A stretch of DNA of 64,000 nucleotides from Motilimonas sp. E26 (GTDB lineage Bacteria; Pseudomonadota; Gammaproteobacteria; Enterobacterales; CBDFNC01), in contig NZ_JAIBHJ010000002.1 in the NCBI RefSeq assembly GCF_021278025.1, forward strand, positions 133,043-197,042, read 5' to 3'. The notes beneath the pieces were generated by a model that did not search any database, was not told the origin of the DNA, and was given only the letters and a program-made list of their open reading frames with translations. The position numbers and the translations under genes are program-made. Below are positions 1 through 27,456 of this stretch, piece after piece; positions within the stretch are counted from its first letter, which is position 1, and every line of letters starts with the position of its first letter.

Positions 1-229
1 AAACAAGGCCTAAACTTTTACATCGGCCACTCAGGGCGAAAAAGGCCGGCATTCATTTCAAGCAAAAGCCCATTGATAAAATGCATCATGCCTCCTTTTT
101 GATTTAAGAACACTTATCCATATTGGACAAACAAGGCCTAAACTTTTACATCGGCCACTCAGGGCGAAAAAGGCCGGCATTCATTTCAAGCAAAAGCCCA
201 TTGATTAAATACATCATGCCTCCTTGTTG
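1..229 (-). repeat. Tandem direct repeat (period 128 bp) holding two micro-ORFs
   Basis: Bases 1-101 and 129-229 are near identical: I count three mismatches, at 78/206, 83/211 and 98/226. A 27-base spacer separates them. Read on the minus strand, each copy carries a strong ribosome site (AAGGAGG), then ATGATG and a 22-23 codon frame ending in TAA (18-89 and 146-217). The peptides start MHFINGLLLE and MYLINGLLLE and share the rest. Two of the three differences change an amino acid. The copies lie directly downstream of astA, where astD is expected in this group, and AstD proteins commonly start M-x-x-(F/Y)-I-x-G. My inference is that these are duplicated, frame-broken astD 5' ends. They could instead be a translated leader or an unrelated repeat. 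The left copy may continue outside the window. Confidence 0.75.
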
Positions 230-246
230 AATTATTTAGTGAGTGG

Positions 247-1263
247 TTACAAACTCAGCACTCGCACTGTATCCCCTGCTACTATTTTTAACGCATCGGC
301 CACATCATGACTTAGCACCGCTTTATGATGCTTAAGTGACACACTGATAGATGCCACCGTGGCACGAAAATCAGTGACTGATATGTTGCTCACTATGTAT
401 TCAGCTTGGTCTATAGGTGAGCCAATTTCCACTTGCAAGCGCAAACAATCTCGCACCGAACGAATATGTTCAATTGGGCACTCAACGGTTGGCCCAGCAT
501 CAAAAATGTCAATATAGCCATTTTGATGAAACCCCTCTTTCTCTAGCAATTTTAGCGCAGGTAAGGTTTTTTCATGCACTTTACCAATCACCTGTTGCGC
601 TTGTGGGCTAAGTAAACTGATATAAATAGGATATTTAGGCATTAATTCGGCAATAAACTGCTTATTACCTAAGCCAGTTAAATGATCTACAGTGGGAAAA
701 TCGACAGAAAAAAAGTGCTGCTCAAGCCAAGCCCAAAAAGGCGAACGGCCATCTTGATCACTCACACCACGCATTTCTGCAATCACAGTGCGGGCAAAAC
801 GATTACGATGCTCCGCCATCAATAAAAAACGACAACGTGATAACAATCGGCCAGCATGACCACTGCGGTAAGGCTCACGTAAAAATAAGGTGCAAAGCTC
901 TGACACCCCAGTGTAATCGTTACTTAAAGTTAAGGTTTCAACTAAGTTATAGACCCCAAGTGTAGGGGAAGAGTGCACCACTTTGCCAACATGGTAATTA
1001 TAAAAAGGCGCGGTCATTCCCACCGCTGCTTCAATGGCTGTCGTGCCGACGATTTCACCCGAATTTAGGTCTTCAGCCACCATCAAATAGCCTTGATCGC
1101 CGGCTTGTTTTACTTCTTTGCTAAAGGAGGTAACAGAATGGTCAATTTTACGCTGCAATAATGCTTCGTTGACCGGCAGAGAGGTAAACCCCACACCTGA
1201 CTCCTCTGCCATTGCTAACAACTGGAACAAGTCTGAAGCTTTAATTGGACGGATCACTAGCAT
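247..1263 (-). CDS. astA: Arginine N-succinyltransferase AstA
   Basis: First enzyme of the arginine succinyltransferase (AST) pathway: transfers succinyl from succinyl-CoA to the alpha-amino group of arginine in the cytosol, allowing arginine use as nitrogen and carbon source. The 338-residue length is normal for AstA, and the N-terminus (MLVIRPIKASDLFQLL...) and central EMRGVSDQDG / FWAWLEQHFF stretches are family-like. The ATG is preceded by GGAG about 8 bases upstream. It lies 71 bp downstream of argD on the same strand, an arrangement typical of Shewanella and Vibrio (argD-astA-astD). The next gene should be astD, but the sequence after the stop is the 128-bp tandem repeat. Confidence 0.95.
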   Translation of the reverse strand: MLVIRPIKASDLFQLLAMAEESGVGFTSLPVNEALLQRKIDHSVTSFSKEVKQAGDQGYLMVAEDLNSGEIVGTTAIEAAVGMTAPFYNYHVGKVVHSSPTLGVYNLVETLTLSNDYTGVSELCTLFLREPYRSGHAGRLLSRCRFLLMAEHRNRFARTVIAEMRGVSDQDGRSPFWAWLEQHFFSVDFPTVDHLTGLGNKQFIAELMPKYPIYISLLSPQAQQVIGKVHEKTLPALKLLEKEGFHQNGYIDIFDAGPTVECPIEHIRSVRDCLRLQVEIGSPIDQAEYIVSNISVTDFRATVASISVSLKHHKAVLSHDVADALKIVAGDTVRVLSL

Positions 1264-13215: not shown

Positions 13216-15195
13216 TTACAGGACTAATTTACGTAAATCAGACAGTAAACCATTAATTGTGGTGATGAAACGTGCGCCATCAGCGCCGTCAATCACACGG
13301 TGATCGTAAGAAAGCGCTAATGGAACCATCAAGCGAGGTTCAAACTCTTTACCGTTCCATTTTGGCTTCATTTCAGACTTAGACACACCTAAGATAGCCA
13401 CTTCTGGCGCATTAACGATTGGCGTAAACTGCGTGCCACCGATGCCGCCAAGACTAGAAATACTCAGTGAACCACCTTGCATGTCTTTACCTGTTAGCTT
13501 GCCATCACGCGCTTTCTTAGAGATTTCAGCCAAATCGCGGCTTAGCTCGTGAATGCCTTTGCGGTTAGCATCTTTAACAACCGGAACCACTAGACCGTTT
13601 GGCGTATCTACCGCTACACCAATGTTGATGTATTTCTTGTAGATGATGTGCTCGCCGTCTTCAGCTAGTGACGTATTGAACTTAGGATGCAGTTCAAGGG
13701 CTTTCGCGACCGCTTTGATGATGAAGATCAGTGGGCTAATTTTAATGCCGTTACCGATTTTCGCATTCATCGCGTTTTCGCTTTGACGGAATGCTTCTAG
13801 CTCAGTGATATCCGCTTCGTCAAATTGCGTTACGTGTGGAATAGTTACCCAGTTGCGATGTAGCGCAGGACCAGAAATTTTCTGGATACGAGACATTTCA
13901 ACGGTTTCGATTTCACCAAATTTAGAGAAATCAACTTTTGGTGCTTTCACAACTTGTAAGCCGTTACCACCGCCAACTGACGTTGTTGCCGTTGCTTTTG
14001 GACGTGACAATTCATATTTCACATATGCTTGTACGTCTTCTTTGATGATGCGAGCTTTACGCCCCGAGCCCTTAACCTTAGTTAGGTCTACACCAAATTC
14101 GCGCGCTAAACGACGCACTGATGGTGAAGCGTGCACTGTACCTGAACCTTTGCTTTCTGCTGCACTTGGGTGATGCGGCACTGGTGGCGGCTTAGGTGCT
14201 GCTTGTTGTGGCGTAGCTTGAGCTGGCGCAGGCGCTGCTGCAACAGGAGCCGGTGCCGCATTAGCGGGTGCAGGTGCCCCGGCAACGGTTACTTCAACAA
14301 CAGCCACTAAGGTACCTTCAGATACCTTGTCACCGACGTTAATTTTTAGCTCTTTGACTACACCCGAAAACGGTGCTGGTACTTCCATTGAAGCCTTATC
14401 GCCTTCAACAGTTAGTAGACCCGCTTCTTCTTCGATAGTGTCGCCAACTGAAACAAGTAGCTCAGTGACTTCAACTTCATCGCCGCCGATATCAGGCACG
14501 TGAACTTCTTTAAGCTCAGTCGTTGATGCTGCACTTGGCGCTGCTGCAGGAGCAGGTTCAGCAACTGGTGCAGGCGCTGCTTGAGCAGCTGGTGCCTCTG
14601 CAGCAGCTGAGCCAGACTCAACGACCACAATCAAAGTGCCTTCAGACACCTTATCGCCAACCGCTACTTTAATTTCTTTCACTACACCGCCAAATGGTGC
14701 CGGTACTTCCATTGAAGCTTTATCGCCTTCAACCGAAATCAAGCCTTGCTCTTCTTCAATCGTGTCGCCAACGGCTACTAAAATCTCAGTAACGTCAACT
14801 TCATCAGCGCCAATATCTGGCACCGTGATTTCAAGCAGCTGGCTTGCGCCAGCTGGCGCTGCGGCTGCTGGCGCTGCGGCTGCTGGAGCTGGTGCTTCAG
14901 GAGCCGGCGTCGTAGGAGCCTCTTGCGCAGCAGGCGCTTCTGCTGCAGGCGCACCGCCCGCCGCTTCCACAGTAATGATAAGAGTACCTTCAGACACTTT
15001 ATCGCCAACTGCTACTTTGATTTCTTTTACTACGCCGCCAAACGGCGCAGGTACTTCCATTGATGCTTTATCACCTTCAACAGAAATCAAACCTTGCTCT
15101 TCTTCAATGGTGTCACCCACGGCGACTAAAATCTCGGTTACATCGACTTCGTCTGCGCCAATGTCAGGAACCAGAATTTCTTTAATATCAGACAT
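13216..15195 (-). CDS. aceF: Pyruvate dehydrogenase E2, dihydrolipoamide acetyltransferase
   Basis: Core subunit of the pyruvate dehydrogenase complex, 659 residues. It has three N-terminal lipoyl domains (about residues 5-75, 120-195 and 225-300), each with a GDKAS lipoylation motif (first lysine Lys43), linked by Ala/Pro-rich hinges. A peripheral subunit-binding domain ([22 protein letters not shown]) follows near 355-390, then the acetyltransferase domain ending with the catalytic [12 protein letters not shown]. Lipoyl domains 1 and 2 are identical over 65 residues although their DNA differs at many third positions. The start is 17 bp from the aceE stop, so the two are co-transcribed. Confidence 0.97.
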
Positions 15196-21736: not shown

Positions 21737-21768
21737 GACTTTGTGGATTGCCCGAAGGAGTGTTTTTT

Positions 21769-21827
21769 GTAGGTTCTAAGTTTGCTCAGGGAATTTGTGA
21801 TATTTGCTTAACAAGCTCATCTCCTAC
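21769..21827 (+). repeat. REP-like inverted pair, diverged subtype
   Basis: Forward part 21769-21804 (GTAGGTTCTAAG, TTTGCTCAGGGAATTT, GTGATATT) and inverted part 21806-21827, which on the minus strand reads GTAGGAGATGAGCTTGTTAA. The same two-part arrangement recurs at 27394-27452, with better-preserved stems there. Confidence 0.65.
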
Positions 21828-22044
21828 GATCGGTGCGACCGTGAAAAATAGCGCGACACAGCTTTCGGAGCGGTTTGATCTCTGATTTAAACCGCGAAAC
21901 ACCAAGTAACTTGCAAAATCAACCTTAGATAAATGCGGCGTTAATCCCTATAGCAATCGACAGCAATAATACTTTTCTCTTAAATATCAAGACTTAGGTT
22001 TTACTGAGTCAAGTCTCAATTTTGCTAAAAGCATACGAAATAAC

Positions 22045-27364: not shown

Positions 27365-27393
27365 TATGTTGAACTTGTTGATTCGTGTTTTTT

Positions 27394-27452
27394 GTGAGAC
27401 CTGAGCTTGCTCAGGGAATTTGTGATATTCGCAGAGCAAGCTCTGCTCCTAC
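27394..27452. repeat. REP-like divergent pair
   Basis: Forward unit 27394-27430 (GTGAGACCTGAGCTTGCTCAGG then GTGATATT) and inverted unit 27431-27452 (minus strand GTAGGAGCAGAGCTTGCTCTGC). It recurs in diverged form at 21769-21827. Confidence 0.7.
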
Positions 27453-27456
27453 GGAT

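Follow-up and report, generated by a model that had tools for sequence, protein, structure and literature searches.

The astA-astD locus and its repeated gene starts

The window, by which we mean the whole stretch of DNA that was analysed (64,000 nucleotides of the Motilimonas sp. E26 genome, G000:C12:133043-197042), opens at the ast genes. The gene order here is astC/argD - astA - astD, and the corresponding families TIGR03246, TIGR03244 and TIGR03240 are matched above their cut-offs. Following astA, and on the same minus strand, lie two copies of a 106-bp segment, designated A and B, whose features are collected in Table 1. The two copies and their period are read directly from the DNA. They align without gaps at 102/106 positions and stand 128 bp apart, the edge of copy B being separated from the astA stop by 12 bases. 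It appears that an ungapped 106-bp pair with 96% identity lies far beyond what chance would provide. The four mismatches are found at window positions 78, 83, 98 and 103 (numbering of the left copy). Two of them fall within the first codons and change the residue (H/Y and F/L); the other two precede the ribosome site. All of the tail to the right of the assembly gap described below is contained in bases 1-77 of the left copy, a stretch identical to bases 129-205. The array is not listed by Tandem Repeats Finder; the window holds fewer than two full periods of it.

Each copy carries the ribosome site and start given in Table 1, followed by a short frame ending in TAA. These micro-ORFs comprise 22-23 codons, 22 if counted from the second ATG. 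The unit of the array consists of the astD ribosome site with about 11 codons, then about 83 bp of other sequence which supplies the early stop. The layout reads 33 bp of start, 95 bp of insert and 33 bp of start. The stop of micro-ORF B is 56 nt away from the first ATG of copy A. Two copies of about 100 bp at a 128-bp period, each with a perfect ribosome site and a short frame, had been noted in a preliminary description of this DNA, and the observation is confirmed here.

Table 1. Features of the astA-astD locus (window coordinates unless marked L003)
Feature	Coordinates	Strand	Remarks
Left window edge, right edge of the 100-N gap	1..1	.	third start copy beyond the gap
Repeat copy A (middle copy)	1..106	-	on the reverse strand: ribosome site, astD-like codons 1-11, tail to the assembly gap
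Micro-ORF of copy A	18..89	-	MMHFINGLLLEMNAGLFRPEWPM*
AAGGAGGCATGATG of copy A	84..97	-	
Repeat copy B (adjoins astA)	129..234	-	102/106 identical to copy A, period 128
Micro-ORF of copy B	146..217	-	MMYLINGLLLEMNAGLFRPEWPM*
AAGGAGGCATGATG of copy B	212..225	-	
astA, arginine N-succinyltransferase (TIGR03244)	247..1263	-	upstream neighbour
Third start copy, start of intact astD	L003 2872-2943		across the gap from the window
Intact astD	L003 1444-2904	minus	486 codons, MMHLINGIWLEGRGEPIVSV..., normal end

An assembly gap within the array and an intact astD beyond it

Immediately to the left of window position 1 lies a run of 100 N (G000:C12:132943-133042). From their place and orientation, the short frames had been proposed to stand where astD should begin. 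They are indeed copies of the astD start, since a third copy across the gap runs into astD itself. This is the further copy that was to be sought to the left of position 1, and the N-terminus of the AstD protein, MMHLINGIWLE, matches the micro-ORF peptides. At least three astD starts are present at the locus, that of astD itself included.

The astD gene is directly seen to be intact. Its product scores 803 bits against TIGR03240 (cut-off 579), an equivalog-level profile match obtained with a query that bore three extra N-terminal residues, having been started at L003 2913, three codons upstream of ATGATG. A broken astD, one of the readings first put forward, is rejected on these grounds: 486 codons of uninterrupted gene lie beyond the gap. 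The companion suggestion that the copies are relics of a duplication is strengthened by the third start copy and by the intact gene that it begins.

The copy on the astD side is 90% identical to copy A over 72 nt, and 63% identical to copy B over the same 72 nt, the left flank of copy B being different. Within the start proper (46 nt), astD differs from copy B at 6 positions and from copy A at 7. The astD divergence is 12.9%.

The order of the copies is head to tail at a constant period. Copies A and B are 128 bp apart, and the astD copy and copy A are separated by 228 positions, 100 of which are N. The gap is flanked by GGAC and AAACAAGG, the same junction that occurs ungapped within the array. 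The spacing of 228 equals 128 + 100, and the assembly broke within the array. The gap probably stands for repeat that the assembly could not resolve, and it may hide further copies. The assembly comprises 84 contigs and 4,625,348 bases; Table 1 of PMC13182010 gives it as an Illumina assembly of 84 contigs and 4.6 Mb at scaffold level.

Other repeats in the window and genome

A dispersed repeat of about 69 nt is found at window positions 21760-21828 and 27385-27453, and again at L003 490-557, past the end of astD. We counted 19 matches in the present genome and 25 in that of M. cestriensis (G002); M. eburnea (G001) and M. pumila (G003) gave none at an E value of 0.001. A copy taken with its flanks folds only mildly better than shuffled sequences (z -1.1). 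Five matches to this repeat lie near one another on one strand at G000:C2:125960-127382, three of the four steps between them being about 250 bp; perhaps these form a tandem array. A 659-residue frame on the minus strand (window 13216-15195) has three similar N-terminal repeats, and a 203-nt repeat is present there in three copies at 14306-15180. The resemblance is to the lipoyl domains of pyruvate dehydrogenase E2, which we take to be ordinary.

The astA-astD spacer in relatives

By AstA identity, the closest named relatives are M. cestriensis (96%), M. eburnea (88%) and M. pumila (66%), each of which has a single astD start after astA. According to PMC13182010, E26 is placed with the sister strains Spo1_1 and 1_MG-2023 G1M02 in a possible new clade. 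Spo1_1 has a complete Nanopore genome, GCA_051055415.1, and the assembly of 1_MG-2023 G1M02 is GCA_030547455.1. In a wider comparison of 35 rows, made up of the best 30 of 176 matching genomes (among 295) and five loci of the closest relatives, astD lies downstream of astA in all 35. Without the row of this genome, and with the three congeners that occur both among the 30 and among the five added loci counted once, there remain 31 distinct other genomes. When the astD start was compared with its own upstream region, the best local score was 87 in this genome and 10-18 in all 34 other rows. This local match search detected no upstream copy of the astD start in any of the 31, three of which are congeners; the sample has one genome per species, is weighted towards near relatives and cannot stand for all 176. 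Most spacers in these relatives are shorter than 80 bp, which leaves no room for an array, the tabulated lengths being about 9 nt short for Motilimonas and resting on extrapolated starts in the other genomes.

In searches with the DNA of the array, matches among 59 relatives were obtained only in this genome, M. eburnea and M. cestriensis, in the latter two over the start only. Among the 295 genomes of the order, the same three were recovered together with G247, whose 28-nt match stays within the start segment (query 11-38); in this search two candidates were scored per genome row listed, and weak matches may escape it. The tryptophan of MHLINGIW is kept in the AstD of all four Motilimonas genomes, whereas both micro-ORFs have leucine, as expected if the copies ceased to code for enzyme.

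In the literature surveyed on Motilimonas, astD and related topics, no paper on such a duplication at astD was recognised, and the main text of PMC13182010 contains neither 'arginine' nor 'tandem repeat'. The heptamer repeats near starts described in PMC4679880 are a different thing.

Regulatory signals and conservation of the start segment

The preliminary description also raised the possibility of a translated leader controlling astD. On that proposal, the tandem micro-ORFs would load ribosomes in front of astD and modulate its expression, be it by decoy initiation, Rho protection, reinitiation or stalling. In every copy the ribosome site and start are complete, and the sequence is better preserved across the 33-bp start segment than over the 13 bases that follow. 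Relative to astD, copy B differs at 1/33 positions in the segment and at 5/13 in the following bases (Fisher p 0.005), and copy A at 2/33 and 5/13 (p 0.014), with the 33/13 boundary picked after the data had been seen and with copies A and B not independent of each other. This better-kept segment is the sole positive hint for a leader. Either selection on initiation or a recent exchange between the starts by recombination could account for it. Over the stretch that copies A and B share up to the gap they differ at three positions, all of them inside the start segment.

Scans of the region for regulatory signals gave the leader little support. RNA folding is no better than that of shuffled sequences, with a z score of 0.41 for 260 nt and scores of -1.26 to -0.17 for four shorter stretches. 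Neither terminators (0) nor a sigma-70 promoter were found in the 801 bases scanned outside the gap, and the array region has no Rfam match. ArgR-type boxes are represented only by sites with two mismatches to the consensus, a count made without a chance control. The micro-ORF has no run of arginine codons, containing one R in 23 residues.

The distance between the frames can be argued either way. Translational coupling is most efficient at small distances and declines as they grow, yet one gene pair described in PMC12548453 is coupled even at +62 nt, against the 56 nt from stop to ATG measured here. That source attributes the exceptional pair to an unfolded hairpin. Since the array is also lacking in the 31 distinct other genomes, three congeners among them, we regard a regulatory leader as unlikely.

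A more specific version of the proposal treats the array of abortive starts as an adjustable decoy or ribosome-loading leader, in which the copy number, possibly variable and hidden by the gap, sets the ratio of AstD to AstA. Were this so, the better-kept 33-bp start segment would be under selection. We consider it very unlikely.

Origin of the tail

The source of the sequence that follows each copied start was sought in the spacers of the congeners and elsewhere. In M. cestriensis, the spacer between astA and astD resembles the 95-bp insert: 3/2000 dinucleotide shuffles score as well in local alignment and 5/2000 in semiglobal alignment. With loose scoring, 5/1584 comparisons with real sequences are as good. 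With strict scoring the match is weak, 82/1584 being as good, as are 0.055 of single-base shuffles. The M. eburnea spacer has no similarity to the unit (1158/2000 and 1166/2000 shuffles as good). A decayed start copy within the M. cestriensis spacer was considered as well and is not supported, shuffles being as good in 284/2000 local and 702/2000 semiglobal comparisons. The likeness of the tail to the M. cestriensis spacer suggests a local origin, and derivation of the tail from the astA-astD spacer seems likely, as a suggestive reading of the alignments. If the tail is spacer, the unit amounts to spacer plus gene start, and the stop of the micro-ORF arises where the copied start meets the copied spacer.

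The 33-95-33 bp layout would formally suit a different history, in which a foreign element of about 95 bp was inserted with a 33-bp target duplication and amplified later. Elsewhere in this genome the insert does not recur, which such an origin would allow. Nor does it occur in the other three genomes of the genus, where, as in this genome, 87 of its 95 bases were used for the search (best other match, E 0.098). With the 240-bp array as query, blastn at E 0.1 gave no match in phages or plasmids; viral contigs contain no exact match to one 25-base piece of the insert, and the region has no inverted repeat of 12 nt or more. Moreover, the insert agrees with the corresponding astD codons at 8 of its first 13 bases, and the resemblance to the M. 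cestriensis spacer likewise speaks against a foreign source. A mobile-element or phage origin of the tail is rejected, nothing beyond the array having been found in the genome, the genus, phages or plasmids, and the insertion scenario as a whole is highly improbable.

That one region was simply assembled more than once, as the 100-N gap inside the array might suggest, is scarcely credible, the copies in the window differing at 4/106 sites on one contiguous stretch with astA, and the third copy differing at further sites and joining astD.

A probable local tandem duplication

We conclude with good confidence that the array arose by local tandem duplication between astA and astD, is specific to a single marine lineage of Motilimonas and is probably near-neutral. 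Events of this kind and size are commonplace. We infer that a segment holding the astD ribosome site, roughly its first 11 codons and probably some spacer DNA was first duplicated ahead of astD. Amplification at the 128-bp period would have followed; the probable mechanism is slippage at, or unequal recombination between, the 33-bp copies of the start. Ribosomes should be able to initiate at every additional copy as they do at astD, to run into sequence that is not astD and to stop after 22-23 codons. The astD gene retains its own equally good ribosome site and its intact frame, and its expression from the same message probably continues. Some translation of the micro-ORFs is likely, probably without a selected role. 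The visible effects are a longer spacer and the gap in the assembly.

The observations that may be counted against the duplication include the weak match of the tail under strict scoring, the better-kept start segment and the missing tail at astA. Concerning the last, a single clean duplication of spacer and start would leave a tail segment in front of the astA-proximal copy; none is there, so a further deletion must be assumed.

With astD intact and the micro-ORFs being partial copies of its start, neither a broken pathway nor a new family of leaders is needed to account for the locus. If the copy number varied among strains, the locus would offer a modest natural experiment on the effect that repeating a ribosome site within an operon has on the output of the gene downstream.

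Comparison with known systems

Like bacterial regulatory uORFs and leader peptides, the micro-ORFs precede a gene, are short and have good ribosome sites. Unlike them, they were not found in the sister species and come with no terminator, folding signal or run of arginine codons, and the frame repeats, in truncated form, the start of the downstream gene. The locus agrees with the ast operon of the arginine succinyltransferase pathway in gene order and families, and departs from it in the extra start copies between astA and astD. Intergenic tandem repeats of the minisatellite or VNTR type arise by local tandem duplication. The array shares with them its head-to-tail 128-bp units, its presence in one genome and not in relatives, the high identity of its copies and the failure of the assembly to resolve it. 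It differs from them in that the unit here happens to carry a gene start.
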